A stretch of 21,805 bases of DNA from Chloroflexota bacterium. Lineage in GTDB: Bacteria > Chloroflexota > Ktedonobacteria > Ktedonobacterales > Ktedonobacteraceae. Where the stretch lies: the NCBI GenBank assembly GCA_005879655.1, contig VBJK01000119.1, positions 1 through 21,805 of the forward strand. The letters run 5' to 3'. The notes below the pieces were generated by a model. It made no database searches. It was given only the letters and a program-made list of their open reading frames with translations, and was not told where the DNA came from. Positions 2,244 through 21,805 of the stretch are shown in pieces (position 1 is the first letter of the stretch; each line of letters starts with the position of its first letter). A program made the translations under genes and the position numbers.

Positions 2244-2525
2244 TTAAAGACATCCCGTCTTCAAGGTGTGCATGATGAAGGCAAGATATTTCTCAGCTAA
2301 CTGCTCGACGCTGAGCCTGCCAACAGGATTGATCCAGAGATAGGTCCAGTTCAAGGCACCCAACAAGATCAGCGTGGCCAGCCGTGCATCGGCAACAGAC
2401 CAGAGACCAGCATCGCGTCCCTCTTCGATCACCCGCTGCAAACAGGCTTCATACTCATCACGGCATTGCTTGATGATCTCTTGCCGCTCTGGTGAGAGAA
2501 ACCTCCACTCATTGCTCTGGACCAT
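2244..2525 (-). pseudogene. TetR-family regulator, C-terminal fragment
   Basis: The 93-residue frame matches the ligand-binding half of TetR proteins: a WRFLSPERQEIIKQCRDEYE helix, then ADARLATLILLGALNWTYLW, then LSVEQLAEKYLAFIMHTL. The N-terminal DNA-binding helix-turn-helix (about 100 residues) is absent. Upstream codons to about 2570 show no TetR resemblance, and from about 2512 the opposite strand encodes an unrelated HTH protein. The gene was therefore cut by a recombination near 2515-2525 and should no longer bind DNA. The frame begins at an ATG that falls at the junction by chance. Confidence 0.75.
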
Positions 2526-2676
2526 TCCACAAGTTGCCCAAGCTCTCAGCCTGGGCCGAACGAAGGTCTATGAGCTGATCTACAAGGAGGGATTGCCTGT
2601 CCAAAAATTTGGACGAGCCACCAGAATCTCCCCAGTGGAACTGCGGCGTTGGCTTCAAGAGCGGGAGCGTCAATGA
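2512..2676 (+). CDS. Short HTH DNA-binding protein (excisionase/MerR-like, HTH_17 type), possibly 5'-truncated
   Basis: From a TTG at 2512 the frame gives 54 residues: WTIPQVAQALSLGRTKVYEL, then a wing KFGRATRISPVELRRWLQ. This is the winged helix-turn-helix of excisionase-like proteins, which bind short DNA repeats. Family members usually run 60-75 residues with a Met start, and here the N-terminus meets the TetR fragment, so the original start may be lost; no good ribosome site is visible. It lies upstream of a repeat cluster and a ParM-like gene on the same strand, so it could be the DNA-binding partner in a partition-like cassette. That role is inference. Confidence 0.6.
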   Translation: MLWTIPQVAQALSLGRTKVYELIYKEGLPVQKFGRATRISPVELRRWLQERERQ

Positions 2677-2865: not shown

Positions 2866-3571
2866 ATGTTTACAGAGACTACCGTTCATCCTGACTCTTT
2901 GCTGGCCCACCTTGGCCACAGCGAGCCGCTCACCAACACGAGCTTAAAAGACCCTGTGCGCCAGATCCCGTTTGTGCGTTGGGACGCCTCGTCTGGTCGC
3001 AAGATCGAGACCAAGGCAACCATTGTCTCGGTTGATAACGGCAATGATGCCTTCAAAGGTGCGATGCTCCATGCACATGCCCCTCGCTTTTGTACCAAGC
3101 GTCTTATCACAGCCTATGCTCCGGCGAGGAAGCTTGGTGCAGGCGATGGCATTACAACCTGGCAAGTCAATGGGTCTGAGCCATTCTGGATAGGCGACGA
3201 TGCCTTACTGGCAACGAAGGCCGAGAGCCTGCCCATCGGCATGACTGAGGAGCGGCTCCCCGATGAACGTTACCGCCGCTACCTGTTCGCCTGTCTGGTG
3301 GAACTGTTGCTCGAAGCAGGATACGGAACACTTTCACGCGAATTCCAAGGAGAACATGACCTCTTCCTCAGCTTTGGCCTTCCTAATGAAGAGGTGAGGC
3401 ATGGCAACGTCAGCGAGGTGGTAAGACAGGCACTGACTCCGCTGCTCAAAACGGCATAGACCGTTCGTCGCACTGACGAACAAGAACGCGTCACCACCTG
3501 GATTCTCAGATTGGTCCAACTCAATCCGTATCCACAGACCTTTGGCTCGTTTGCCACTTGGTACTATAAAG
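2866..3571 (+). pseudogene. ParM/actin-like ATPase, broken by an in-frame stop and an IS insertion
   Basis: AAGGAG at 2855-2860 precedes the ATG. The first 197 residues include the phosphate-1 motif of actin-like ATPases, VSVDNGNDAFKGAM (D57, K64), and a region PFWIGDDALLATKAES typical of plasmid-partition actins. A TAG at 3457-3459 ends the frame, yet the same frame continues with clearly coding sequence (TVRRTDEQERVTTW, then QLNPYPQTFGSFATWYY) up to the IS end at 3572. Full-length relatives are about 350-400 residues, so the phosphate-2 and adenosine motifs are lost. Such proteins polymerise to push plasmid copies apart; this copy cannot do so. Homology past the stop shows that the stop is a mutation and not the natural end. 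Confidence 0.75.
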
Positions 3572-3650: not shown

Positions 3651-4508
3651 TTATGCTAAAGTGATCGGTTTATCAGTAAAGTACACTTCAGCAGGGGTTT
3701 TATAATCGAGAGCTTGATGAACTCTTGTGTGATTATAAAAATCGAAATATCTGCTTAATTGCTGGCGAGCTTCCTTCGGTGAGGTATAGTCGTGTAAATA
3801 GACTTCTTCATATTTAATCGTCCTCCAGAGACGTTCTGTGAAAATATTGTCTAATGCACGACCTTTACTATCCATACTAATTTTAACGTTCGCCTCCTTT
3901 AATAGTTGCTGATACTGCTGATTCGTAAAATGGCTGCCTTGGTCGCTATTCCAGATCTCCGGCACCGCTGTCGAAAGTGCGAGTTGAACAGCTTCTAGAA
4001 CGAATGGCATTTCGAGTGTTTGATCGAGTGCCCAGCTCACCACATAGCGCGAGTACCAATCTAAAACAGCAACCAAATACATCCATCCTTGTTGTAATCG
4101 AATATAGGTAATGTCGATTCCCCACACCTGATTGGGAGTACCAATCGTCATATTCTTTAAAAGATATGAGAACACATGTTCTTTATGTTGCCGTCGACTT
4201 AAATTTGGCCCTGGATAAATGGCTACAATGCCCATTTCTCGCATATGACGCTGCACTGCTTTCCGATTAATTTGCACTCCTTCTCGTTGCATATGGGCCG
4301 CAATACGACGTGAGCCATAAAACGGATATTCTGTGTATAATTCATCAATACGATGTTTGATAGCGACTTCTTCGTCTGAAGGTTCTCGCGGCTGATAGTA
4401 GATGCTTGAGCGACTAATACTCAATAATTCGGCTTGTTGTGTAAGCGAAATATCGCTACTTTCTCGTTCTACAAGCATTGCCCGTTGCTCATGACTTAGA
4501 CTTGACAC
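3651..4508 (-). CDS. IS3-family transposase orfB (DDE catalytic subunit)
   Basis: This 285-residue frame starts at a GTG and carries HTH_21 (residues about 45-100, ELYTEYPFYGSRRIAAHM) followed by the integrase core. The catalytic triad is visible: D132 in WGIDITYI, D189 in NSDQGSHF and E225 in DNIFTERLWRTIKYE, with the D(35)E spacing of IS3 elements. The C-terminal YNHTRVHQALDYKTPAEVY is standard. In intact relatives it is made as an OrfAB fusion by -1 frameshifting at A7 (4509-4515). Here orfA is damaged, so orfB may have no active fusion partner. Confidence 0.93.
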   Translation of the reverse strand: MSSLSHEQRAMLVERESSDISLTQQAELLSISRSSIYYQPREPSDEEVAIKHRIDELYTEYPFYGSRRIAAHMQREGVQINRKAVQRHMREMGIVAIYPGPNLSRRQHKEHVFSYLLKNMTIGTPNQVWGIDITYIRLQQGWMYLVAVLDWYSRYVVSWALDQTLEMPFVLEAVQLALSTAVPEIWNSDQGSHFTNQQYQQLLKEANVKISMDSKGRALDNIFTERLWRTIKYEEVYLHDYTSPKEARQQLSRYFDFYNHTRVHQALDYKTPAEVYFTDKPITLA

Positions 4509-7439: not shown

Positions 7440-8684
7440 ATGATGAGCATACAATTTCCAGAATACTGGAAGCCGATAGGGCATGTTGACGTTCGGATCG
7501 GGTCGTTGCGCAATGATGCGCGACTCTATGACAATTATCCAACGTTTCAACGCGAAAAGATCTGGCCATATCGCATGAAACAAAGTCTCATTGATAGTAT
7601 TCTTCGTGGGTTTCCCATTCCAGAACTGCTTGCCAATTGCCGGGAGCATCAATTCTGGATCGTTGATGGGCAACAACGACTCTCGGCGATCCTTGAGTAC
7701 CTTGCTGATGGCTTTCCGACCTCACGCCTCAAAGAAGATCCTTGCTTACAGCCGATTGAGCCAAACAAACGGTACTCGCGCTTGTCTTCAGAGGCACGTG
7801 AGCACTTCGACAATTACACCTTACGTATTAGTGTTGTAGAGAACATGGATGAGAGCCAACTGGGTGCCCTCTTCCGCCGTCTCCAGAATCAGCAGTCCCT
7901 GATGCTGGCCGAAAAGCTGTGGACCTTTACCAGTGAAGCGAACAAACAAGCAGCAGAACTGGCAACTCATCCATTTTGGACAAAAATGTATGGAGGGAGA
8001 CAAACACGCAAGCGCCCCTTCCTCGCCAGCCTCCATCTCCTGTGTCTAGAGTTGTCCGGTTTCACCAATCTCACAACACCTTGTCTGCGAGATGTCGCAG
8101 CAGGAGCACATGATGAGCAAATCACGTCAACAACCATTGCCATGATACGACAACGACTTGAAGAGGTGGCACGCCTGTTTTATGGAACGATGATCCAATC
8201 ACTCAAGGAACTCATCCCCGTCTACCAGGCGCTCATCCTGCTTGAAAAATCGGATTGTGATGTTGCTAAATCAACACTGGGGTGCTTATCTCCCTGGTTT
8301 GCCCAGATTCGGCAAGCCTCACTTCAAGCACGAAAAACCTATGGGCAAACTGATATCCTTTCCAAAATAATCTACAGCCGTTATCAGCTACAGTTTTGGG
8401 AAGAGGAACTTCCCAAGGTGCGACAGGCCGTGGGCATCTGCATCATTGATCGCAAACGCGCCTTTAGTAAGAGTGATCGAGAACAGGCATTGCAAAGGCA
8501 AGAAGGCATTTGTCCACCCTGTGGTCAGCCCATCACTGTCTCTGATATTGGACACCATATCGTCTTACACGCCAAAGGTGGACCAACGACCGTCGAGAAT
8601 TGTATTGTTCTTCACGAAGCCTGTCATAGCAGACTTCATAGACTCCCAGGGACCGAATGGGAGATCCTCAGAGAAGCGGCTTGA
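7440..8684 (+). CDS. DUF262 domain protein with C-terminal HNH nuclease motif
   Basis: The 414-residue protein begins with a DUF262 (ParB/sulfiredoxin-fold) domain: YPTFQREKIWPYRMKQSLID, then FWIVDGQQRLSAILEYL with the signature DGQQR at 76-80. A helical middle follows. The last 60 residues are an HNH-type module: CPPC (C358, C361), GHHI (H372-H373), N387, then LHEACH (H392, C395, H396), so both the metal-binding cysteines and the catalytic His are present. In GmrSD, SspE and BrxU, DUF262 domains couple nucleotide binding to nuclease action against phage DNA. CAGGAG lies 9 bases before the ATG at 7440; a second ATG follows directly. herA starts 270 bases downstream. A role in defence is inference. 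Confidence 0.85.
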   Translation: MMSIQFPEYWKPIGHVDVRIGSLRNDARLYDNYPTFQREKIWPYRMKQSLIDSILRGFPIPELLANCREHQFWIVDGQQRLSAILEYLADGFPTSRLKEDPCLQPIEPNKRYSRLSSEAREHFDNYTLRISVVENMDESQLGALFRRLQNQQSLMLAEKLWTFTSEANKQAAELATHPFWTKMYGGRQTRKRPFLASLHLLCLELSGFTNLTTPCLRDVAAGAHDEQITSTTIAMIRQRLEEVARLFYGTMIQSLKELIPVYQALILLEKSDCDVAKSTLGCLSPWFAQIRQASLQARKTYGQTDILSKIIYSRYQLQFWEEELPKVRQAVGICIIDRKRAFSKSDREQALQRQEGICPPCGQPITVSDIGHHIVLHAKGGPTTVENCIVLHEACHSRLHRLPGTEWEILREAA

Positions 8685-8942
8685 ACAATCTCCACGTTGC
8701 CATAGGCTGGCTCTCCGCTGCCGAGTGGCTGACACGGTAACGGACAGCCAAGGAGTTCCTGCCCTCCTCTTCCTTGCCAGGGGCCAGTTGCCGCTCCTGG
8801 TGGGGAATGATGCGGCAGAGGACGAAATCCATCCACTTCACTGAAGAGTCCGCCTCTAGACTGGACATAGGTAAGCGATAGAGTCATCAGGAAGATGCTT
8901 AGCAGAATGATCAGGGTAGTACACGTTTCTTACTTAAATAGC

Positions 8943-8947
8943 AGGAG
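8943..8947 (+). promoter_or_regulatory. Ribosome binding site deciding the herA start
   Basis: AGGAG lies 7 bases before the ATG at 8955. The longer frame from 8895 has no such site and adds 20 residues without family resemblance. Confidence 0.7.
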
Positions 8948-8954
8948 AAAGCCC

Positions 8955-10835
8955 ATGTCCAACAGCTACCTGTTTACCCAAAAGAACGTTATCGGCTTGT
9001 TTAATGGCTTTGTGGGCAGTGGGAACAGTCTAGAATTTCATGCTGATCTGGTTCTTCCCTATCGTAACGAGTTTCAATGTCTCCCAATGCATGGCCAATA
9101 TCTGCTCGTACAACTCCAAACACCTTCTGAAGCTATCTTGGGCCGTATCGTTTCTCTCGGCTCGGATGGCGCATTAGCCTCAAAAAAGAGCGAAGATGAG
9201 AATCTTAGTGCCCTTCGTGAAGCCAAGGAGATCTCAGAGAAAGCCCGTGAAAAAGACCTCAAGTATCGAGTCAATATGCAAATCTTAGGGGTCTTGCGAA
9301 AACGCCCTGGTCAACCTCTGACCTTTGTCCCTTCTCATCGCCGACTTCCGCACCTAGGAAGTCGAGTCGCCTTTCCGACAGGGGAAGTCCTACAAGAAAT
9401 TGCAGGCCATAACATTGCTGGCGCAGCGATTGGTCATCTGGCCTTGGGTGAATACATTTACGCTCAGGGATGTCCCACTATAAAAGAGGAGAATTGGATG
9501 CATCTTCTTGCTCCAGAAATTCTCGTTCGTTTTCCTGTAGAAAGTCTTATCGCCCGTAGATCCTTCATCTTCGCACGTGCAGGCTTTGGCAAGTCCAATT
9601 TAAATAAATTGCTCTTGAGCCAATTATACCGACAGACCCCTACAGTGATCAAACGGGGGAATCAATCCGTTCCCGTTGGAACACTTTTGTTTGATCCAGA
9701 TGGAGAATACTTCTGGCCTGATGATAAAGGAAGACCAGGACTCTGTGATGTGCCTGAACTCCAAAAGAAGCTTGTGGTCTTTACACCCAGAATGGCACCC
9801 AGTCCCTTTTACCAATCCTTTGTAGCAGGAGGAATTAAAATCGACATCCGTCAGCTCTCTCCTACTGACGTGCTCTCTATCGCGCTGTGCGCTCAAAAGC
9901 AGGACCAACAAAATGTACAGAAATTAAAGGGACTCAAGCAAAAACCATTGGCTGCGCTTGTCGATCTCATTGCTGAACGTGGAAATCAGACCCTCCTCAC
10001 TGAGATGAATCGGCTCCTGGGCCTGGATAAACAGCAGGCCGCAGAAGCTTTGGCGGCACGCTCGAATATGACGACTGTAGTGCAGACCCTGCATGATCCA
10101 GACAGCCAACTGCTCAAACAACTCCCCAAGGCACTTGCTCAGGGGAAGCTCTGTGTCATTGATGTCTCACAATTGCATGATGGACAGTCCCTGATTTTAT
10201 CGGGCCTTCTTCTGCATCATCTTTTTCAGCTTAATCAGGAGGAGTTCACCAAAGCTCAACCACATTCCATTCCTATCATTGCGGTCATCGAAGAAGCTCA
10301 GTCAGTCTTGAACAACAGGTCCCCGGCAGCCGAACCCTATATCTGCTGGGTCAAAGAGGGCAGAAAATATGATCTGGGAGCCTTGCTTATTACCCAACAG
10401 CCAGGCAGTCTTCCCCCAGAAATCCTGAGTCAAGGTGACAACTGGTTTGTCTTGCACCTGTTATCAGTCACTGATTTAAAAACCCTCCAGAAAGCCAATG
10501 CGTACTTTAGCCAGGATATCCTTTGCATGCTCCTCAATGAGCCACTTACTGGGCATGCCGTATTCTGGAGTTCGGTCTGTGGCAAACCTTATCCCGTCTC
10601 GCTGCGTGTCTTATGCTTTGAGCAAGCCTATAGCAGACTTGATCCGAACTATGAGCGAGCCTCTATCCCGACCTTTGCCGCTTCTTTACAGACGAGTGTT
10701 AGCCATAAACCAGAAAGTGTCCCAAGCGTATTCCTCTCTTCTGAATACGATGACTGGCCTCCTTTGGACGAAAACGATCCAGAATTTGAGGACAGGGAGG
10801 AAAAAACTGACCATGAATTTGAGGTTTTAGTGTGA
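8955..10835 (+). CDS. HerA-type DNA translocase ATPase
   Basis: The 626-residue protein has the HerA layout. A barrel-like N-terminal domain (about 1-195) is followed by a RecA-type motor with Walker A FARAGFGKSN (K213, S214), the HerA hallmark DPDGEY at 247-252, Walker B IIAVIEEAQ (E446, E447), and the sensor/arginine-finger region LLITQQPGSLPPEILSQ at 478-494. HerA proteins form hexamers that pump double-stranded DNA; with NurA they resect DNA ends, and with Sir2 or DUF4297 partners they act in phage defence. No NurA is seen; the neighbour is a DUF262-HNH protein. The last 45 residues are acidic and probably disordered (DDWPPLDENDPEFEDREE). The hairpin array starts 25 bases after the stop. 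Confidence 0.88.
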   Translation: MSNSYLFTQKNVIGLFNGFVGSGNSLEFHADLVLPYRNEFQCLPMHGQYLLVQLQTPSEAILGRIVSLGSDGALASKKSEDENLSALREAKEISEKAREKDLKYRVNMQILGVLRKRPGQPLTFVPSHRRLPHLGSRVAFPTGEVLQEIAGHNIAGAAIGHLALGEYIYAQGCPTIKEENWMHLLAPEILVRFPVESLIARRSFIFARAGFGKSNLNKLLLSQLYRQTPTVIKRGNQSVPVGTLLFDPDGEYFWPDDKGRPGLCDVPELQKKLVVFTPRMAPSPFYQSFVAGGIKIDIRQLSPTDVLSIALCAQKQDQQNVQKLKGLKQKPLAALVDLIAERGNQTLLTEMNRLLGLDKQQAAEALAARSNMTTVVQTLHDPDSQLLKQLPKALAQGKLCVIDVSQLHDGQSLILSGLLLHHLFQLNQEEFTKAQPHSIPIIAVIEEAQSVLNNRSPAAEPYICWVKEGRKYDLGALLITQQPGSLPPEILSQGDNWFVLHLLSVTDLKTLQKANAYFSQDILCMLLNEPLTGHAVFWSSVCGKPYPVSLRVLCFEQAYSRLDPNYERASIPTFAASLQTSVSHKPESVPSVFLSSEYDDWPPLDENDPEFEDREEKTDHEFEVLV

Positions 10836-10860
10836 TCTTATGGGTAATATACGTAACCCT

Positions 10861-11156
10861 AGCACATCTGTGAACCACTTGACACGCTCAATTGCTGTCA
10901 AAACTCTCCTTTTCTGACAGCAATTCCCATCCCAGAGCATATCTTTCAACGACAAAGACCACCTCACACACCCGTTGCTGTCAAACCTCTCTTTTTCTGA
11001 CAGCAACGACCCACCCACAGCATATCTTCCAGCCCCCAAAGCCCTTTCACATACCCCATTGCTGTCAAAATCCTCATTTTTTGACAGCAATTGCCAAAAT
11101 CTGGACCATCCAAAACTCATCTTTTAGGCGTTGACAGCAATTTTGACAGCAACGCC
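10861..11156. repeat. Array of hairpins with 83-84 bp period (TTGCTGTCA half-site)
   Basis: Three hairpins (stems 10890-10900/10915-10925, 10973-10983/10998-11008, 11058-11067/11082-11091) share TTGCTGTCA and TGACAGCAA around a T-rich 14-base loop. They start at 10892, 10975 and 11059. The outer two base pairs co-vary (AA/TT in the first, CG/CG in the second). AGCATATCT (AGCACATCT in the first) recurs at 10861, 10936 and 11019. The array ends with two tandem TTGACAGCAA copies at 11131 and 11143 enclosed by GGCGTTG (11127-11133) and CAACGCC (11150-11156). Eight half-sites are present. No U-run follows the stems, and the spacing suggests a protein-bound array (iteron, centromere or attachment site). 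Confidence 0.85.
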
Positions 11157-11289
11157 GAATGTCTTCCATTGTACACCAAGAGACTCAGTGGACATTCACA
11201 GGCACGATTTGAGAAGAGAATGAACACGGATGACTCTGGTAAACAACTGTAAGAGAGTCCCCCCTTCGGCATGAACCCTCTTCTAGAGT

Positions 11290-11344
11290 CCGCTGACGTT
11301 CATCCCACGCTCAAATTTCCAAGTTTTGACCGCTGATGTTCGTC
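11290..11344 (+). repeat. Short direct repeat pair CCGCTGAYGTTCRTC
   Basis: CCGCTGACGTTCATC at 11290-11304 recurs as CCGCTGATGTTCGTC at 11330-11344 (13 of 15), 40 bases apart. Confidence 0.55.
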
Positions 11345-11368
11345 GGTTTTCGCAAAAAATCGTGGGTG

Positions 11369-11396
11369 TTGCTACAGTTGTTGCTACATGTAGCAA
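11369..11396. promoter_or_regulatory. 16-bp perfect palindrome with extra half-site
   Basis: TTGCTACATGTAGCAA at 11381-11396 is a perfect dyad, and one more half-site TTGCTACA lies 12 bases upstream at 11369-11376. The 12-base offset equals that of the last two half-sites of the 10861-11156 array, and TTGCTACA shares its first five bases with TTGCTGTCA. It looks like an operator or recombinase core. Confidence 0.55.
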
Positions 11397-11519
11397 TGCC
11401 CATTTTTGTGTGTTCGGTTCTGCCGGAAGATAATCGATAAAGATCTCTAGCAGTCTTTTCCTGTCAATTCGTCCATCTTCAAAGGAAGGACGAAAAGGGA
11501 TCAACCCAGGCATCAGCTT

Positions 11520-11852
11520 GTGCATTGGTTTCTCCATCAATCAAAGCTTGAATCATGTCTCTTCCGCTCTTGCCCAGCACATCTGTGGTGGTACTTTCTG
11601 ATCCAACAAGCAGCCGCACCTATATTCTCGATCAGCAACGCGTGGGATCAACCACGCTTACAGACTCCTGAGCAATTTGAACGATGGAGTCACATTGTCG
11701 CCATTGCCCATAACCATCTGGTGTTGGCTTCTCCTCTCGTCGAACCAGAGTTGCGTCCTTGGGAGAGCAAACAACGCTCTGCTCTAAGAGGAGGCAAAAG
11801 AGTTCCTCTTTGCTCCCTCTTCTTAGGTCTACTTAAACAGGAGTATCCCTGA
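11520..11852 (+). pseudogene. Transposase C-terminal fragment
   Basis: Within this frame, WDQPRLQTPEQFERWSHIVA followed by HNHLVLASPLVEPELRPW matches the tail of large IS transposases (the segment after the catalytic core). Upstream of it the expected DQQR stretch is in a different frame, a sign of a frameshift. Sequence after about 11800 is unlike a transposase end. It is a relic next to the PKS 3' end. Confidence 0.55.
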
Positions 11853-12896
11853 CCTCACGCTCCGTTTGAGATGGTTTGACCGCAAGAAGCGGAAGGATCG
11901 ACTCTGTTAACTCACGGACGCTCGGTCCGACAATCAAGAGCTCTAGTGGGAGGGAGATATCTAGCTCTTCTTCGAGCCGACGCTTAGCCTCCATACCCAC
12001 GATTGAATCCATGCCCATATCCAGCAGGGCTTCATCTAGCAACAAATCGTTTACTTCTACGCTCAGAATTGGGGCGAATACCTGTTGCAAGTAAGCATTC
12101 AGACAGCCTTCCCATTGATCCTGACTTAGACCCCTTAAATCACGGATGATTTTGGATTCACTTTTTCGCTCTTTTACCACCTCAGACTGTTCCAAATAGT
12201 TTCTCAAAGCATCCTCGCGCTCCTTGTTCAGCCCCTTCATTACGCCACTGTGTATCTGCGCCACCACCGTGCCATTCTCATCAAACAACTGAAATCTCCC
12301 ATTCAGTTGGCCCTTTATTTGTGGACTATCTTGCAACACCACGTGACACCACAATACTTGATCCACGAGCTGGTTATGGCAAACAAAGCCCTCCCAACGA
12401 GTCACCATATATCTCAGGTCCGTATCCTTGCCTCTGGATAAAGCTGCATGAAATAACTGTGCACAGGCTTCAAAAACCCCCGGATGGACTCCTATTGCAT
12501 ATTCATGGGAGGTTCTTAAGCTAGGTGGCACCCTCAACCGTGCTAATGCCTCTCCTTCACGGGACCAAACCAGCTCGATCCATTGGACACTCTCACCTAA
12601 AAAGATTCCTCTTTCTTGAACTTTCTGATAAAATTCTGCTCCGGAATACCGATTCGTACAGCGACTGATGATCTCTTCTTTCAAGTCGGCATCGACTGAT
12701 TGACTTGGAGCGGTGTTATCTAGGTGTATTGTCCCTTGTACATGCTTCTTCCAGTTGTCGTCGCCTTGATGGCTGAAAAAAGAGAAATCCAGCTCGCCGC
12801 TCTCTTTTGCGTTGAGCATTAAGGAGAGCGTGACTGTCCCACTCTCGGGAGGCATGACTGCCGTGAGAAAATCGATGGTTTGAATACGAAACGCCG
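11833..12896 (-). pseudogene. PKS module, rear part: DH remnant and ACP (cut from the preceding frame)
   Basis: An ATG at 12855 gives 340 residues, but in-frame DH-like sequence begins earlier (ITAFRIQTIDFLTAV, up to about 12893) with no start codon, so this is the continuation of the gene ending at 12897. It holds the second half of a dehydratase domain, in which the usual catalytic Asp of the HP...DxxxQ motif is Glu (HPGVFEACAQ, E129). An acyl carrier protein follows, LLDMGMDSIVG with the phosphopantetheine Ser at 284. The DH front half with the catalytic His motif (HxxxGxxxxP) is missing. No thioesterase follows. Confidence 0.7.
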
Positions 12897-15548
12897 TTAT
12901 CTGCCATGAGTGCCTTTCACATCGGGAACAGCATCTATGCTCAGAGCATACTCAACCAGTTTGGCTTTGATAGGGGTGTTGATGATTCTTCCGTCGAGAA
13001 GGTTATTCTCATCTATCTTTTCTTTCTTGCTCTCCTTTTTTGCCCGGGAGACGAGGCGATCCATTGTGGTCTCACACCAAAAATGTTTTCTCTGGAATGG
13101 ATAGGTCGGCAAAAGAATTTTTCGTCTACTATAGCCCTGCTCAAAACCTGACCAATCGATGTCTAATCCCCAGCAATATAGATTGGCCAAGGTAGTCGTT
13201 AAGGTTCTCCATGGATCACCTTCTGTGACGGATGGAAAGCATTGCACACCAAAACGAGTAAAAAGATCCTCTTGTTCGCCTGCATCATCTAGAATACCTG
13301 TCTGTAGAAAATGTTTATATCCGAGCTTGTGAAGGGACTCTATCCCTTTCTTCCTGCTTAGCTCCCTGCCCAATACCTGCTCCCAATACCTCTGTGAGAG
13401 AGCCTCTTGCTTTTCAACAGGTCTGCCAGTACTCCCAGAGATGATGCGGATCAGTGGATGACTCAGAGCTCTCTCGCCACCTGCTTTTCCAGTCACTCCC
13501 CAATGTCCCAAAATAAAGCCGAATGCTGTTTCCATATCCATAATTCCAGTAGCACAGGCCGCCACCAGTTCTCCGCAGTGACTTCCCAGCACAGCATTGG
13601 GTCTAACCCCCCATGCCTCCCACATTTTTAACAAACTCAAGTGCAAGGCAAACGTAAGAACATCGTCCAGCAATCCGGCAGTACTTACGTCATAGATTCT
13701 CTCTCCCAAGGGACCGTTCTCTAACAAGGAGATATCGGCTAACTGCCGGAATCGTTCGTCGCAGGAACGAATAGCTTTTTGGAAGATTGGCTGTGTTTCA
13801 AACAAGCATTGTGCCAGTGCTTGATGCATTTTCCCCTGGATAAGAAAGGCGAGTTTGGGATGCGTGTGATCCCGTCCCTTTCCTTCAATCACGCCCTCAC
13901 CTTTATCCCCACGAAGATACCCAGCTATTGCAGTTTTCATTTGCTCCCTGTTTTCAGCAATAAATGCAAATCGACAAGGAAATTGAGATCTTCCGGTATT
14001 GGCCGTAAAGCATATATCTTCAAGTTTCTCTTCACTGCTCTGATCAAAGTGCTTCCCGTACCTCGCTATGACTTGGGATAAGGCTTTCTCATCTTTTGCT
14101 GAAAGGGCCAGAATATGCCAGGACCTCTCGCAGGAAGAAGGCGAAGTCATGTCAGGGACCTCTGGCCATTCTGAGACAATGACATGGGCATTGGTGCCAC
14201 TAAACCCAAACGCACTCAGCCCTAACACTCTTTGTTTTCCAGTTGGTTCCCAAGGAACCACGTTTTGGGGAACGATTGCAGGAATTCTATCCAGGCGAAT
14301 TTTTGGATTGACTTTATGCAAATGCAAGTTTGGTGAAATTTGCTTGTTCTGCAAACATAAGACCGATTTAATGAGGCCCGCTATACCGGCAGCCGCTTCC
14401 AAGTGTCCTATATTGCTTTTGACCGAACCGATGTAGAGCGGCTGTGCTCTCTTGTACTCTCCTGCAAATACTTCCGTCAATGCTTGAAATTCGATGGGAT
14501 CTCCTAAAGCGGTACCCGTTCCATGAACCTCCACATATCCAATATCTACGGGAGAGACATTTGCCATTGCGAGTGTTTTCAGGATCAATTCTTTTTGAGC
14601 CTTCCCATTTGGCACGGTCAGCCCGCTTCCAGGGCCATCTTGATTGACACCAGTCCCCTTGATAACGGCTAAAATGGGATCGTTATCCCGTAGTGCGTCG
14701 GAAAGCCTTTTTAATACCACTATTCCACAGCCCTCACCGCGTCCATAGCCATCACCACCTGCATCAAACGTTTTGCACCTTCCATCTGAGGCAAGCGCAT
14801 GCAAGCTACAGAGGGAGAGAAATCCATCAGGCACCAGCAACAAATTGACGCCGCCAGCCAGAGCCAAAGAGGATTCCCCTCTTTGCAAACTTTCACAAGC
14901 CAGATGTACTGCCACCAGCGATGATGAGCAGGCTGTATCAAGAGCAATGGACGGACCATGTAATCCTAAAATGTAGGAAATTCTGCCAGAGGCTATACTC
15001 GACATCAAACCGGTTAGCCTATAGGGATTCATATCGGCGTTTTCACGAGGCAAAAAGGCATATTCGGAACCGATGATCCCGATAAAAACACCAGTTTGCG
15101 TCCCTTTGAGCTGGTCTGCCGGGATACCTGCCCGTTCGAGCGCTTCCCAACTCACCTCCAAGAGCAATCTTTGCTGTGGGTCCATTTCAACCGCTTCTCG
15201 TGGCGATATGCCAAAAAAGCGGGCATCGAATTCACCCACATTTTCCTGCAAAAATCCGGCCTCTTTGAGATAGATTTTCCCGGCTATGCTCGGCTCCGGG
15301 TCATAGAAGTCCTCGATGTGGAATCTGTCCCGAGGAACCTCAATGACGCCATCACCACCTGTGGTTAAAAACTGCCAGAACGTTTCTGGGTCATGGCATC
15401 CTCCTGGGAAACGGCACCCCATCCCAATTATGGCAATCGGCTCTTGCTCCTTTTTTTGCTGCTCCAGTTCCGCTTTTAACCTTCTTATGGCAGATAACGA
15501 GCTTTTTAAGAGTGATGCGTAATCTTCTTGTCCAATTTCTTTCAACAT
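12897..15548 (-). CDS. Type I PKS module: docking, KS, degenerate AT, start of DH
   Basis: The 883-residue protein begins with a coiled-coil docking helix (SLSAIRRLKAELEQQKKEQ). A ketosynthase with complete triad follows: C207 in DTACSSSL, H342 in VHGTGTALGDP, H382 in SNIGHLEAAAG. Its NQDGPGSGLTVPNG stretch is of cis-AT type. Residues 565-790 are an acyltransferase relic (KLAFLIQ, FETQPIFQKAIRSCDERF), but GHSxGE reads GSHCGE (655-660), and the substrate-binding lobe after it is mostly missing. The frame then enters a DH (LLDGRIINTPIKAKL) and stops at 12897. The ATG overlaps the stop of the previous gene (ATGTTGA), so translation is coupled. Loading would need an AT in trans. Confidence 0.8.
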   Translation of the reverse strand: MLKEIGQEDYASLLKSSLSAIRRLKAELEQQKKEQEPIAIIGMGCRFPGGCHDPETFWQFLTTGGDGVIEVPRDRFHIEDFYDPEPSIAGKIYLKEAGFLQENVGEFDARFFGISPREAVEMDPQQRLLLEVSWEALERAGIPADQLKGTQTGVFIGIIGSEYAFLPRENADMNPYRLTGLMSSIASGRISYILGLHGPSIALDTACSSSLVAVHLACESLQRGESSLALAGGVNLLLVPDGFLSLCSLHALASDGRCKTFDAGGDGYGRGEGCGIVVLKRLSDALRDNDPILAVIKGTGVNQDGPGSGLTVPNGKAQKELILKTLAMANVSPVDIGYVEVHGTGTALGDPIEFQALTEVFAGEYKRAQPLYIGSVKSNIGHLEAAAGIAGLIKSVLCLQNKQISPNLHLHKVNPKIRLDRIPAIVPQNVVPWEPTGKQRVLGLSAFGFSGTNAHVIVSEWPEVPDMTSPSSCERSWHILALSAKDEKALSQVIARYGKHFDQSSEEKLEDICFTANTGRSQFPCRFAFIAENREQMKTAIAGYLRGDKGEGVIEGKGRDHTHPKLAFLIQGKMHQALAQCLFETQPIFQKAIRSCDERFRQLADISLLENGPLGERIYDVSTAGLLDDVLTFALHLSLLKMWEAWGVRPNAVLGSHCGELVAACATGIMDMETAFGFILGHWGVTGKAGGERALSHPLIRIISGSTGRPVEKQEALSQRYWEQVLGRELSRKKGIESLHKLGYKHFLQTGILDDAGEQEDLFTRFGVQCFPSVTEGDPWRTLTTTLANLYCWGLDIDWSGFEQGYSRRKILLPTYPFQRKHFWCETTMDRLVSRAKKESKKEKIDENNLLDGRIINTPIKAKLVEYALSIDAVPDVKGTHGR

Positions 15549-17929
15549 AAGATCAAATCTCCTTGAACCAGGCCTGGCTCTTTCTGTTGTGTCGTCATTA
15601 ATTCAGCAAGGTTCTTTCTTAGCTCATAAACAACCTCTTCCAAAGTCATATCCTGGACTTCTTTTGTATCTTCCATGGCAAGAAGTTCCATTTCTTCCAG
15701 AAGTAACATTTCTTCTAGCTTTGAAGAGTGAGGAAGATTTTGCTTTTCCAGTTCTGAGAAAGGAATGTGTTTGACAATGTATGCAGATAACTCTGAGATG
15801 TTCGGATAATCAAATATCGCTGTATCAGTAAGATCAATCAGAAAGATCCCTTCAAGCGAAACCCGAAACTGTTCCGCTAGAACCGATTCCATCCCCATAT
15901 CAAAAAATCCTTGGTGAAGCCCTGGCACATCAGGAGGATTAAAAGCCAGCAAAGAGGCCAACACGTCTTGCACATACCTTTCGATCATTTCCAGGCGCTC
16001 CCCTTCGAGTGCCTGACACAGTTCTGCCAAGAAGGTTACACTTTCAGGCTGCCCTGGTTTTTCATCCTCTTGCTTTTGGATGGGGGCTGTAGGGGCGATC
16101 CCTTGCGGTCGCCCCGTTCCTACGGCCTCAGTTGTTGGCGCGAACGGTGCTTCTCCAACCCAGTAGCGCTCTTTTGAAAAAGGATACGTTGGCAAAGGTA
16201 TCTTGAAACGTCTCTCATTTTGACACATACTTTCCCAATCGATCTCCCTCCCGCTTGCCCAAAGTTCCGCTATCTTTTCCACTATAGCCGATGAAGATCG
16301 AACAGTTTCAAGATTGTCAGGAGCCTGCTCTATTTTGAGCTTTTTTTCTGCTGTTCTAGACTTGATATTATATTGAATGTAGAGACCGTTTTTCCCAAAA
16401 GCCTCCTCTTGATTAAGAAAGAGCTTCAGTTTCTCAATGATCTCCTCGACATCTCTCGCCGTAAATGCCAGCCTGCACGGCATAGGGTCCCGACCAGTTT
16501 GCAACGTATAAGCCACATCTTTCAGCTTGGCCATTTTGCCCTGATCCTTCATGCTTTTTTCCATGAAGTCTTTAAGGAGTTGAGCAGAAACACGGAGATT
16601 CTGCTCTTTTTGAGCCGATAACACGATAATGACAGGCTCTTTATTCAGCTCTCCTTGAATATCTGTATCGTTTTCCGCTTGATATTCCTCTAGAACAAGG
16701 TGTACATTCACTCCCCCCGCTCCAAATGAGCTTATCCCGGCACGTCGCGGATACACCACCTCTTCACCATTTACTTGAATTACAGGTTGTTTCCACTCTT
16801 CGAGAGTTTGTTGAACAAAAAACGGCGTATTCTCGAAATCAATGTGAGGGTTGAGCTTGCTTGTATGTAACAACGATGGTACGAGCTTCTTGTGCTTCAT
16901 CTGAAGCACGACTTTTGCGACCTGGGAAATCCCTGCTGCTGCCTCCAAATGACCAATATTGGACTTGACTGAGCCAATGGCACAGAACTGTTTATCCGAT
17001 GTATATTCATTGGAAGCATTGGAAGCATTGAAAGCATCGCTGAGACCGGTAATTTCAATGGGGTCACCAAGTTTGGTTCCCGTACCATGAGCCTCAACAT
17101 AACTAATACTACGTGGATGGACATGAGCAACCGTCAGCGCTTTATGAATGACTTCCGTTTGAGCAACCGGATTGGGCACACTATAGCCAAACGTTTTACC
17201 ATCGTTATTGACTGCTGATCCTTTGATGACAGCATAAATATGGTCCCCATCAGCTATGGCGTCTCTCAGTGGTTTTAATAACACTGCTCCAACACCCTCT
17301 CCTGGAACATAGCCATCCCCATCTTGACCAAATGAGCGGCAATGTCCATCACTTGAGGCGAACTGAGTCATGCAGAGAGATATATATTTACTTGGGTGCA
17401 AAGAGAGATTGACTCCTCCTGCAATAGCCATGGCACATTCACCCCTTTTTATGCTTTCACAAGCCAGGTGAATGGCATAAAGGGAAGAGGAGCAGGCGGT
17501 ATCCAGAGCGACACTTGGTCCGCTCAGGTTGTAAATATAGGAGACGCGGTTGGCGATGGAATAGGTTTGGGAGTTGACCGGTATAATGTTTCCTCGCTCA
17601 TATTCCTTTATGAGATATAACTGGTAATTATTGTAGGTGACACCAGCAAAAACACCGACATTCGCTCTGCCGTCTCCTGCGCTCTCATCTCTCAACAAAC
17701 GCTTTGAATAACCAGCATCTTCAAAACACGCTGCTACGATTTGCAGAAAAAGCCGTTCCTGTGGGTCCATAAAACGCGCTTCGAGAGGCGAGATATGGAA
17801 AAACGATGGATCAAAGGTATCTATATCTGGCAAAAAGCCACCCCACTTACAATACATGCCCCCCGTTTTGCCACCCGTCCCCGGTTTATAATATTTCTGA
17901 TAATCCCACCGTTCTTGCGGAATCTCCAC
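15542..17929 (-). CDS. Type I PKS module: KS (5' part lost), linker, ACP, C-terminal docking
   Basis: From a GTG at 17929 the protein runs 795 residues. The KS has C146 (DTACSSSL), H281 (EAHGTGTKLGDP) and H327 (SNIGHLEAAAG); its NNDGKTFGYSVPNP is trans-AT-like. KS sequence also extends upstream in frame to about 18000 (GISGHYPQAANLDAFW), where a TAG blocks it, so about 23 KS residues are not translated and the fold is probably incomplete. After the KS come a linker ending LPTYPFSKERYW, no AT, an ACP (DMGMESVLA, S682) and a Glu/Leu-rich tail (LEEMLLLEEMELLAMED, MTLEEVVYELRKNLAEL) that suits docking to the next protein. A 9-base tandem repeat (about 17010-17036) encodes NASNASN. Confidence 0.78.
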   Translation of the reverse strand: MEIPQERWDYQKYYKPGTGGKTGGMYCKWGGFLPDIDTFDPSFFHISPLEARFMDPQERLFLQIVAACFEDAGYSKRLLRDESAGDGRANVGVFAGVTYNNYQLYLIKEYERGNIIPVNSQTYSIANRVSYIYNLSGPSVALDTACSSSLYAIHLACESIKRGECAMAIAGGVNLSLHPSKYISLCMTQFASSDGHCRSFGQDGDGYVPGEGVGAVLLKPLRDAIADGDHIYAVIKGSAVNNDGKTFGYSVPNPVAQTEVIHKALTVAHVHPRSISYVEAHGTGTKLGDPIEITGLSDAFNASNASNEYTSDKQFCAIGSVKSNIGHLEAAAGISQVAKVVLQMKHKKLVPSLLHTSKLNPHIDFENTPFFVQQTLEEWKQPVIQVNGEEVVYPRRAGISSFGAGGVNVHLVLEEYQAENDTDIQGELNKEPVIIVLSAQKEQNLRVSAQLLKDFMEKSMKDQGKMAKLKDVAYTLQTGRDPMPCRLAFTARDVEEIIEKLKLFLNQEEAFGKNGLYIQYNIKSRTAEKKLKIEQAPDNLETVRSSSAIVEKIAELWASGREIDWESMCQNERRFKIPLPTYPFSKERYWVGEAPFAPTTEAVGTGRPQGIAPTAPIQKQEDEKPGQPESVTFLAELCQALEGERLEMIERYVQDVLASLLAFNPPDVPGLHQGFFDMGMESVLAEQFRVSLEGIFLIDLTDTAIFDYPNISELSAYIVKHIPFSELEKQNLPHSSKLEEMLLLEEMELLAMEDTKEVQDMTLEEVVYELRKNLAELMTTQQKEPGLVQGDLILC

Positions 17930-18000
17930 GATACAATCTCTACCGGACTCCAGATTGTTCCAAAATGCATCGAGATTGGCGGCTTGTGGATAGTGCCCAC

Positions 18001-21000
18001 TTATCCCAAAGAACTACCTTTTTGCGGTTGATCCTGACGCATCTCTTCCCATTGGAGGGATTGGCTCTTGCTTCTTTGTTGGAAAAGCGCGTTCAGCGTT
18101 TCTTTATGCTCTTTGAGAAAGTAGTGCGCTAGATCCGTGATACATTTGTACTGGAAGAACGTTGTGGAAGGAATTGGCCCAAACACTACTTCGATCATTG
18201 GATGTAATCGCGCAATGATAATGGAATCTAGTCCATACTCATCAAATCCTACTTCTCGATCAAGCTTTTCCGGGCTGATTTTTAAAACCGTTGACAGGAT
18301 ATTTACTAAATAAGAGATGGTAAATGCAAGGATTTCGTCCGGTTTGGTAGCGTCCGAACGGGAACGCTGTCTGGACGGTTGCAAGGGATTCTGAGACAGC
18401 AATGGCTGACTTATTGCTGGGATAGCCGGGATCGTTCCGCTTTCACTAGAGGTGTTGCTTTGTACCAGTGGATGCAGTGCGGCAACTGCCTGTATACGAG
18501 GCTCCTCAGACTGGTTTTCTCCACAGGTATTTGTGAGTGAACAGGAGCTACGCACTACCTCCATGGCAGAGGTGGGGAGCCAGTAGCGTTCGCGGGCAAA
18601 CGGATAGGTTGGCAGGCTGATTCTATACGGCTTGACGTCCCCATACAACTTATTCCAATCAAAAGCCAGTCCCTTGACCCAGAGGTCCAGTAGCTTACCG
18701 TATTTCTTCTTGCTTACCCAGGCATCAATAGCAATCCCAATATCATCATCCACATCCAACACTGCCAGAGCTTCTTTATAGCGTTTCACTTGTCCTCGAT
18801 ACACGTCTACGATTCCGTCCTGGTCCTCCACAAACTGTTCAAGTTTCTCTGCAAGTTTCTTCATAGACCCCGCAACAACCGCCAGACGCTCTTGCATCGC
18901 TTCCCGTCCCACCTGAAGAGTATAGGCCAGATCAGCCAGGTTCTCATCAGAGAGCTGCTGATCAACGATCTCCTCTAACAATTGCTGGGCTCTCTTCTTG
19001 AGTTGCTCTTCATTTCTCGCTGACAGTACAATGATTGCCGGGTTGTGAGCATCTACAGTGATGGCGGTCCGTGGGTGCGTGTCTGGTATATATTCTTCCA
19101 GCACCAGATGAGCATTAGCACCTCCAGCCCCAAAAGATGATATTCCAGCTATTCTGGGATAGAGTCTTCCTTCTCCATTTAGCTCGACCAGAGGCCGTTT
19201 CCAGTCCGTCAATTCTTGCTGTAGCACAAAGGGTATTTTCGTACTATTGATGTTAGGATTGATTGTTTTTGCATGCAAGCTTGGCACAATCTTCTGGTAC
19301 TTCATTTGCAGCACAATTTTTGTCACTCCAGCAATCCCTGCTGCCGCTTCCAGATGGCCGATATTTGATTTGACCGAACCGAGCGCGCAGAATCCTATCT
19401 CTTGAGTATCCCGGTGGAATGCTTGGGTCAGTCCAGTCACTTCAATTGGGTCGCCCAACTCTGTCCCAGTCCCATGCCCTTCAATATAACTGACTGTTCG
19501 AGCAGATATCCCAGCCTTTGAGAGTGTACTATGAATTAGCTCTCCCTGAGCGGTCGGGTTGGGCACGGTATAGCCATTGGTTGTGCCACCATGATTGATG
19601 CCAGTCGCACGAATGACTGCGTAAATCTGATCGTGATCGGCAATCGCTTCGGATAATCGCTTTAATACAACGACACCAACACCTTCACCGGGCACAAATC
19701 CATTCCCGCCCTGTCCGAAGCTCTTGCACAGCCCGTCAACTGAGAGCATGTTCTGTGCACAGAGGAATATATAATTGGCAGGGTGGAGATACAGATTCAC
19801 TCCACCAGCTAGTGCCATCTTACATTCACCACGATAAATATGCTCACAGGCTTCATGAAGCGCTGTTAAGGAGGAGGAACACATCGTATCGATCGGCATA
19901 CTGGGTCCTTGCAGATTTAGCAGATAGGAGACGCGGTTAGCAACTGAGCCAAAGGAGGTAGAAGGATGTAGGAGATGTAGATCATCCCTGTCTTTGCCTC
20001 GCTTCCACAAATCAGGACCATAGAGACTAAAGCCAGTTTTGGTTATGCCTGCAAAAACACCTACCTTGTGGTGACATTGCACGCCAAGTTGTTCCCTGGT
20101 ATATCCTGCATCCTCCAAGGCTGCCCAGCAGGTTTCAATGAATAATCTCTCCTGAGGGTCTATACTTTGCGCCTCCTGCGGAGATATGCGAAAGAAGAGA
20201 GGATCAAAATCGGCAAATCCTTCCACAAACCCGCCCCATTTGCTATAGCTTTTGCCTTGTTTTACAGCTTCATTAATGTCCGCATGATAGAAGCCTTCTA
20301 GCGGCCAACGCTCTGCTGGGATTTCAGTAATGCTGCTCTGGCCTGCCTTTAAGTTCTTCCAGTAGTCTTTCAGATTTCTTGCCCCCGGATAACGCCCGGC
20401 AATCCCAATGATGGCAATTGGTTCACGTTCAGGCTTGCCTGAGTCTGCAATGGAGATACTATGAGCCTGCTTCTCTCCTCTTCTCAAAGAGATCGGCGTA
20501 GGAAATACGCGCTCAATATGCTGCTTGCTTACAGATGGTCTGCTCATAGAAGAGATCGCTTCTTCTTTGAGGCCGGTCCACTCTATACATGCTTGTTGGT
20601 AATCCTCCATAAAATACGTGGCTAATTCGTCCAGGGTCCTATATTCAAAAAATAAAGTTTTTGACAATTCTCCAAAGATGGCTGCGAATCTTTGATTGAG
20701 TTGGACAATCTTCAGCGAATCGATCCCGTAGCTCTCCAAAGGCTCATGGGCATCGATGTGCGCTACACTCAATTTGGTAATCGCGCTAAACTGCACTTTG
20801 ATTTGCTGGATAACTTTCTCTCGCAGACGGACAGGATCTATTTGTAGATACGCTTCCGTTGCCGGGTATGATGGAGCTTTTCCTGTCCTGTCACTGCCAT
20901 ATGCTTTCAGCTTTGAGAGACTGCCTTCCAATATCAGGACTTGATCTTCTGCTAAAGCAAAGCCCTGATATAATGCGCGGATACCCGCCGATGTCTCCAT

Positions 21001-21805
21001 GGGAACCATTCCTGCATTCTCTGAGAGAACCTTTGCGGCTTCTGCGTCGATTTTCATTCCGCCATCTTTCCACAGCGGCCAGTTGATTGAGAGCGTTTTT
21101 CCCCACCGTTGTTGGGAGGCGACTAAATAGTTCCTATACCTTGCGTATTCATCCATAAAGACATTGGCCGCGGCATAGTCGGTCTGCCCTACACTGCCAA
21201 AAGCCCCTGCAAGGGCGGAAAAGAGGAGGAAGAAGTCAAGCGGTATATCCTTGCTGGCTTGATCAAGATTCACCAGTCCTGTGACCTTTGGTGCCAGAAC
21301 ATGCGCTATCTCGTCTCGCGTTTTTTTCAGCAGGAAGTTGTCACGAATCACCCCTGCGCTGTGAATGATGCCGTCTAGGTTGCCATAATCTTGCTGTATA
21401 CGCTGAATTAAGTCGCAGACCGCTTGTCTCTGTGTCACATCGACTTGCTCGTATGTTACCTGTGTCCCCTGAACGCCCAATCGTTTGATCCACTCCTGCT
21501 TCTGCGCATCCAGCGGGGAGCGACCAGTGAGAATCAGTGTTGCATCCCTCACTTGATTGGCTATTTCTTGAGCGAAGATAAGCCCCAGTCCGCCTGCACC
21601 TCCTGTGATCAGGTAGACACCACCATCTTTCCAGGGGCATTCCCCTTCTGTTGGGATGTCTTGCACTTCGCTCCAATCGGCAACCCAGCGTTTGCCGTCA
21701 CGGTAGCGAATCTTTTGAGCGCTAGGACAACGGCTGTTTTCCTGCAATATCTTGACAAGCTCTTGCGTATCTGCTTCCAATTCGATGAGTTGCCCGACAA
21801 GCTTG
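18001..21805 (-). CDS. Type I trans-AT PKS: KR, ACP, KS, linker, ACP (5' end beyond right edge)
   Basis: The frame is open to the right edge; a TTG at 21780 is not a likely start because KR-like linker sequence continues upstream. Counting from that codon: ketoreductase (TGGAGGLG at 59-66, S188, Y202, N206; VIRDN near 144-148 keeps the last Asp of the LDD motif of B-type KRs), ACP1 (SYGIDSLKIVQ, S355), KS (C634 in DTMCSSS, H769, H809; GGTTNGYTVPNP as in trans-AT KSs), LPTYPFARERYW linker, ACP2 (EYGLDSIII, S1186). No AT is present. The frame ends at TAA 18001-18003 just as the next KS begins, which suggests one originally longer megasynthase. Confidence 0.85.
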   Translation of the reverse strand, partial: KLVGQLIELEADTQELVKILQENSRCPSAQKIRYRDGKRWVADWSEVQDIPTEGECPWKDGGVYLITGGAGGLGLIFAQEIANQVRDATLILTGRSPLDAQKQEWIKRLGVQGTQVTYEQVDVTQRQAVCDLIQRIQQDYGNLDGIIHSAGVIRDNFLLKKTRDEIAHVLAPKVTGLVNLDQASKDIPLDFFLLFSALAGAFGSVGQTDYAAANVFMDEYARYRNYLVASQQRWGKTLSINWPLWKDGGMKIDAEAAKVLSENAGMVPMETSAGIRALYQGFALAEDQVLILEGSLSKLKAYGSDRTGKAPSYPATEAYLQIDPVRLREKVIQQIKVQFSAITKLSVAHIDAHEPLESYGIDSLKIVQLNQRFAAIFGELSKTLFFEYRTLDELATYFMEDYQQACIEWTGLKEEAISSMSRPSVSKQHIERVFPTPISLRRGEKQAHSISIADSGKPEREPIAIIGIAGRYPGARNLKDYWKNLKAGQSSITEIPAERWPLEGFYHADINEAVKQGKSYSKWGGFVEGFADFDPLFFRISPQEAQSIDPQERLFIETCWAALEDAGYTREQLGVQCHHKVGVFAGITKTGFSLYGPDLWKRGKDRDDLHLLHPSTSFGSVANRVSYLLNLQGPSMPIDTMCSSSLTALHEACEHIYRGECKMALAGGVNLYLHPANYIFLCAQNMLSVDGLCKSFGQGGNGFVPGEGVGVVVLKRLSEAIADHDQIYAVIRATGINHGGTTNGYTVPNPTAQGELIHSTLSKAGISARTVSYIEGHGTGTELGDPIEVTGLTQAFHRDTQEIGFCALGSVKSNIGHLEAAAGIAGVTKIVLQMKYQKIVPSLHAKTINPNINSTKIPFVLQQELTDWKRPLVELNGEGRLYPRIAGISSFGAGGANAHLVLEEYIPDTHPRTAITVDAHNPAIIVLSARNEEQLKKRAQQLLEEIVDQQLSDENLADLAYTLQVGREAMQERLAVVAGSMKKLAEKLEQFVEDQDGIVDVYRGQVKRYKEALAVLDVDDDIGIAIDAWVSKKKYGKLLDLWVKGLAFDWNKLYGDVKPYRISLPTYPFARERYWLPTSAMEVVRSSCSLTNTCGENQSEEPRIQAVAALHPLVQSNTSSESGTIPAIPAISQPLLSQNPLQPSRQRSRSDATKPDEILAFTISYLVNILSTVLKISPEKLDREVGFDEYGLDSIIIARLHPMIEVVFGPIPSTTFFQYKCITDLAHYFLKEHKETLNALFQQRSKSQSLQWEEMRQDQPQKGSSLG

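Follow-up and report, generated by a model that had tools for sequence, protein, structure and literature searches.

The N-terminal domain of lambda integrase binds arm-type sites that lie far from the core of the attachment site (PMC4880445). In the Cluster K mycobacteriophages CrimD and Pixie, arm repeats flank a core that either duplicates the 3′ end of the tmRNA gene or overlaps a tRNA gene, the repeats of CrimD forming pairs of 11-bp sites, and within this cluster the arm consensus varies among related integrases and single arms or pairs may be inverted (PMC3203893). ICEMlSymR7A carries five 10-bp arm-type motifs for IntS, TGKTGGTATC, within a 283-bp attP (PMC11963761).

Here we describe an array of ten-base half-sites in a 21,805-bp stretch of DNA from a member of the Ktedonobacteraceae (Chloroflexota), referred to throughout as the window. 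Judged on its sequence, the array is probably the inner part of the integrase-distal (attR-like) end of a genomic island at the 3′ end of a tRNA-Leu gene, with a series of hairpins acting as extra arm-type sites. Arm motifs of 10 bp around an attachment site are a feature that the window would share with ICEMlSymR7A (PMC11963761), and arm-type sites distant from the core one that it would share with lambda (PMC4880445). The layout differs from all three systems. Eight sites lie on one side of the proposed core, and six of these make up three inverted pairs in a repeat unit of 83 bp, whereas Cluster K phages have four or six predicted arm sites with the core flanked on both sides (PMC3203893). 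ICEMlSymR7A has five sites, and the available portion of its description contains no inverted periodic array (PMC11963761); the five arm sites of lambda are set among IHF, Xis and Fis sites, an inverted-pair repeat unit going unmentioned in the corresponding excerpt (PMC4880445). The titles and abstract openings of the surveyed literature name no periodic inverted arm array either, which does not prove its absence from print.

The hairpins lie at 10892..10923, 10975..11006 and 11059..11090 (none assigned to a strand), spaced by 83 and then 84 bp, and each is an inverted pair of TTGACAGCAA-type half-sites around a 12-nt spacer. The first two contain the half-sites TTGCTGTCAA and CTGACAGCAA, and the third pairs TTGCTGTCAA with TTGACAGCAA. 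They are followed by a tandem pair of TTGACAGCAA with a 12-bp period on the minus strand (11131..11152, with half-sites at 11131-11140 and 11143-11152), which is an exact minus-strand match to KGCTGTCANNNTKGCTGTCA at 11132-11151 and which we propose as the distal arm pair, M2. The pattern TTGCTGTCA-N14-TGACAGCAA had three matches in the window and none in 100 dinucleotide shuffles, bearing out the three hairpins with a common half-site described in the initial annotation. A scan of the whole 21.8-kb window found exact TGACAGCAA eight times, every copy inside the array, with exact TGACAGCAA/TTGCTGTCA confined to the six hairpin positions and the tandem pair. The two tandem half-sites had also been placed inside a GGCGTTG/CAACGCC dyad, which is indeed present (11127..11156, unstranded) but is probably incidental, since its right arm is absent from the nearest relative (L113). 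Covariation of the outer stem pairs, a further claim, holds for hairpins 1 (AA/TT) and 2 (CG/CG) and fails at hairpin 3, where the outer extension is one A-T pair followed by a C/T mismatch. The three units seem to have arisen from one another by duplication in tandem. Half-site identity is 20/20 between units 1 and 2 and 19/20 between units 2 and 3, compared with 31/46 and 10/38 for the respective linkers, so that the half-sites are better conserved than their surroundings; the linker between units 2 and 3 may lie outside the duplicated stretch.

When folded as RNA, positions 10861-11170 gave z scores of -7.75 on the plus strand and -5.39 on the minus strand, with none of 100 shuffles equally stable on either strand. 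This strong fold on both strands would suit a regulatory or protective RNA, such as a hairpin-rich 3′ UTR of herA or a transcription-end region. A Rho-type region comes into consideration because the plus strand is C-rich and G-poor, few parts of the window being as C-skewed as 10862-11130 (34.6 % C, 11.9 % G). We consider an RNA role distinctly unlikely, as 10700-11900 contains no intrinsic-terminator-like site (a GC-rich stem followed by a T run), the window has no Rfam match at gathering thresholds, and the stem 10-mer recurs as direct repeats, which RNA pairing leaves unexplained.

The array adjoins a plus-strand gene for a HerA-like ATPase (DUF87, 8895..10835), read here as island cargo, and binding by HerA had been among the functions first suggested. 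The array would then consist of loading or recognition sites for the neighbouring HerA-like translocase, in the way that FtsK-like TraB proteins recognise clt repeats; the position of the array directly downstream of herA and the repetition of 10-bp sites near eight helical turns fit such a role. We compared, out of 80 herA loci from other groups, the 76 that have at least 300 nt of downstream sequence. None of the 76 has a comparable repeat, the highest count of 9-mer copies per 500 nt being 4 against 8 here, and on this ground we reject binding by HerA as very unlikely. In whole genomes the inverted pairs were absent from all 301 phylum genomes in a pattern search and, in a looser form, from all 47 class genomes. 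The distribution of herA itself (E ≤ 1e-60 in 1 of the 47 class genomes) contrasts with that of the tandem motif, present in 17, and elsewhere the half-site belongs to integrase arm pairs, accompanying integrase genes and tRNA attachment sites.

An attachment site was the sole candidate on the earlier list to gain support, which came from the tandem family, a copy of a tRNA-Leu core and the spacing between them. At 11255..11271 on the plus strand lies GAGTCCCCCCTTCGGCA, whose 17 nt are identical to a tRNA-Leu 3′ end and which we propose as the copy of the attachment core. The segment between it and the tandem arms (11153..11254, unstranded) is 102 bp long. As in an attR, the core thus matches the 3′ end of a tRNA gene and paired arm repeats, here with a 12-bp period, stand at a fixed distance from it. 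There are 32 copies of the 17-mer, spread over 22 of the 47 class genomes (control 0). The extended form TTCGAGTCCNCCCTTCGGCA has 29 occurrences in 21 of the 47 (control 0); all but one of these loci yielded a tRNA-Leu call with ARAGORN, 27 of the 28 with a CAG and one with a CAA anticodon (L293), the remaining locus being interrupted by a contig end. With 29 copies accounted for as tRNA-Leu 3′ ends, three of the 32 bare 17-mers are solitary. The tRNA ends that match the core are mostly those of tRNA-Leu(CAG), which is most likely the target tRNA gene of the island.

Each of the three solitary cores (L331, L333 and L334) is preceded by a 12-bp tandem, ending 83, 102 and 83 bp before the core, respectively, so that L333 has the same arm-core gap as the window. 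The window and all three solitary cores (4/4) have an exact 8-mer tandem at offset 12 in the interval 60-140 bp upstream of the core, and none of the four has an exact-8 repeat at offset 9, 10, 11, 13, 14 or 15; the background at offset 12 is 0.041 per 50 nt in a DNA set that is itself enriched in the motif. The same test was negative at L264, which has a different tRNA-Leu, and a looser tandem is discernible there by eye. L333 is the nearest match to the window in layout, with arms lacking an integrase, the core, and then the tandem arms and an integrase piece that belong to a second element. Immediately ahead of its arms L331 carries an integrase gene, which marks it as an integrase-proximal end, and no integrase was found at L334. 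Similarity between the core-to-arm segment of the window and those of other distal ends was not clear, the best being matched by 22 of 500 shuffles. A 10-bp match between 2516-2525 and 11100-11109, tried separately as a core, was at chance level (E 4.4).

When 10836-11180 was used as a DNA query against the 47 class genomes only the tandem part was matched (G200, 25 nt, 100 %; G104, 27 nt, 93 %). The tandem motif KGCTGTCANNNTKGCTGTCA has 43 matches in 17 of these genomes, the reversed-pattern control having none, and in 43 of 43 its two variable bases are the same letter (both G or both T), which would follow if the motif holds two copies of one site. We read 34 of the motif sites, from 30 stretches, in wide context. 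A tyrosine integrase gene on the same strand ends 2-98 bp before the motif at six sites and a tRNA on the opposite strand starts 68-115 bp after it at ten, one or both arrangements being present at 11 of the 34. The remaining 23 sites have neither, and at a few of them an integrase is more distant or reversed. At these 11 sites the motif is placed as arm-type sites of an integrase would be. The tandem also occurs in 117 stretches of viral contigs, several of which form near-identical sets. Five integrase queries detected an integrase in 25 of 149 motif loci from class genomes and viral contigs combined, within 300 bp of the motif in 17 of the 25 as counted from the individual rows. One viral contig (L229) shows a full site consisting of an integrase gene, the tandem, a tRNA-like core and, about 210 bp on, a second tandem in the same direction. 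Downstream sequence was sufficient for 40 integrase ORFs, of which 22 are followed by an exact-8 tandem within 350 nt, a count that is not independent because most of the loci were chosen via the motif; all 22 tandems have a period of 12, with 11, 12 and 13 allowed. Comparison of integrase N-terminal identity with arm sequence gave no simple trend.

Eight tRNA-Leu loci were read more widely, and tandem arms could be named after the tRNA in six of them. The arms are TTGACAGCA(G/A) in G240, TTGATAGCAA in G224, TGTAGC in G269, TTACGACAA in G184 and AAACTG in G120, all at tRNA-Leu(CAG), and TTGACGACA at the tRNA-Leu(CAA) of G232; they lie 55-153 bp from the tRNA end with a period of 11 or 12 bp. 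The six elements resemble the window in targeting the 20-nt tRNA 3′ end with tandem arms after it and differ from it in having no inverted hairpin series. The loci L322, L323, L324, L325, L326 and L329 (five CAG, one CAA) have this 20-nt tRNA 3′ end in common and differ in their half-sites. A full integrase ORF, with Phage_integrase and SAM-like domains, is present in the stretches of four of the six elements. The element of G240 ties the half-site of the window to an integrase gene, its arms TTGACAGCAG/TTGACAGCAA standing beside an integrase (Phage_integrase Pfam match, E 1.3e-28) and differing from the window's half-site by a single base. Two consecutive elements surround a solitary core in G224 and, as judged by eye, in G120.

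We favour an attR-like end as the most likely reading because the tandem belongs to an arm-type family and because the tRNA-Leu core copy has a 12-bp tandem before it at all solitary cores. The conservation of the half-sites against drifting linkers speaks for it too, as does an excisionase-like HTH_17 gene in the window with homologues at the loci of such integrases. The end would be integrase-distal, given the orientation of its arms relative to G240 and L229 and the lack of an integrase alongside. The hairpin half-sites equal those of the arms except for one base in two of the hairpin half-sites, and the rest of the window contains no further copy, so the economical reading is that the hairpins are extra arm-type sites for integrase or excisionase.

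The shared half-site could alternatively belong to operators of an excisionase or another island regulator that control excision or cargo expression, rather than to an integrase arm. Dyads are typical of dimeric regulators, and the half-sites of the hairpins form such dyads. The window also has an excisionase-like HTH_17 gene on the plus strand (2521..2676), apparently truncated at its N terminus, with homologues of 35-71 % identity in the loci of integrases of this arm-site family. Excisionase-like genes near the integrases of G240, G224, G269 and G184 have 43-61 % identity to it. Genes for recombination directionality factors may moreover be far from int (PMC11963761, in the part available). 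We nonetheless hold operators to be quite unlikely, as the half-sites of relatives are tandem pairs at att arms beside int and the core, which fits integrase arms better.

The inverted layout appears to have no counterpart among the related attachment ends examined. A series of three inverted pairs was found at no other site among 143 distinct motif sites, L175 having scattered inverted copies of the half-site and no series. Because the layout is absent from the other sites searched, the role assigned to the inverted pairs rests on the common half-site. Single hairpins in 17 viral-contig stretches, one in each, were about as many as expected by chance on a rough estimate from the size of the collection, and searches for a plasmid match of the array returned only 21-26-nt matches (E 6). 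A CsrA-type sponge and an integron attC were considered and set aside.

To the right of the core, 11271..11325 on the plus strand resembles the DNA that follows the tRNA-Leu 3′ end of G304 (L143) and its core copy (L131), none of 500 shuffles scoring as well in either comparison, and may be where a second element, or what is left of one, begins. A second 12-bp tandem pair, TGTTGCTACA twice (11367..11388, plus strand), lies across the core from the array, and its half-site resembles the TGTAGC(AAC) of G269 (L323). It would be the end or remnant of a second element and is oriented opposite to the usual arms. Large polyketide-synthase-like ORFs, named by eye, occupy the minus strand at 11833-21804, to the right of the attachment region.

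Upstream of herA on the same strand the presumed island encodes a DUF262 (GmrSD_N) protein with an HNH domain (7440..8684), also read as cargo. Protein matches to DUF262-HNH and to HerA fall on contigs of equal size (15453, 10928, 26883, 19301 and 6717), and the two genes appear to stay together among close relatives, making them a candidate HerA-nuclease defence pair. Among the 80 herA loci of other groups the flanks of 79 had no DUF262 homologue (E 1e-3) and the remaining one had a weak match. No DUF262 relative was confirmed in viral contigs, where the one HerA relative (L335) has no such repeats. An IS3-type transposase gene (rve and HTH_21, 3651-4508) also lies inside the presumed island. 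On the left side a TetR-family gene without its N-terminal part (2244-2525) and the truncated excisionase-like gene join near 2525, a junction that is probably a deletion or insertion scar; in an intact element the excisionase-like gene would be expected on the other strand. At its left edge the window has a fragment of an acyl-CoA dehydrogenase gene with 74 % identity to G276, a genome of the phylum to which a Herpetosiphonaceae genome belongs; the 47 class genomes used here are those of the class of G276, probably Ktedonobacteria. Repeats resembling TTTTGCAGTCAT, with an 11-12-bp period, occur at 2725-2855 just upstream of an ORF (2866-3459) that is actin-like by eye and has no match in Pfam, NCBIfam, PADLOC or PHROGs. 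The window has no tRNA gene and, with five integrase queries, no integrase match better than E 0.05, the element being either cut or extending beyond the window.

Read from the outside inwards, the proposed end would comprise the 17-bp core (11255-11271), 102 bp of intervening DNA, the tandem pair (11131-11152), the three inverted pairs (10892-11090) and then herA. The N-terminal domain of the integrase, or an excisionase jointly with the integrase, would bind the ten-base half-sites, those of the hairpins being recognised as double-stranded DNA, and the bound protein would link them to the core when the island integrates or is excised. Duplication in tandem of a unit of 83 bp may have given rise to the additional inverted pairs, which would have been retained through binding the same protein; the pairs could serve to store integrase, to position it or to bias excision. 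We infer that the island is, or formerly was, mobile. It is also conceivable, though unlikely, that the inverted pairs form a regulatory platform, with integrase or Xis held on one face of the DNA at eight-turn intervals, deciding between integration and excision or tying excision to the expression of herA and DUF262.

As part of the end of a mobile element, a puzzling non-coding array would find an explanation. Ends of this kind that lack an integrase may be recognisable by a copy of a tRNA 3′ end that lies some 83-102 bp from a tandem with a 12-bp period. The at least five arm half-sites found at a single tRNA-Leu(CAG) end would provide a data set on how integrase N-terminal domains choose their arms, and should the inverted pairs prove to be a regulatory platform, the locus would represent an attachment-site design with periodic inverted arms.
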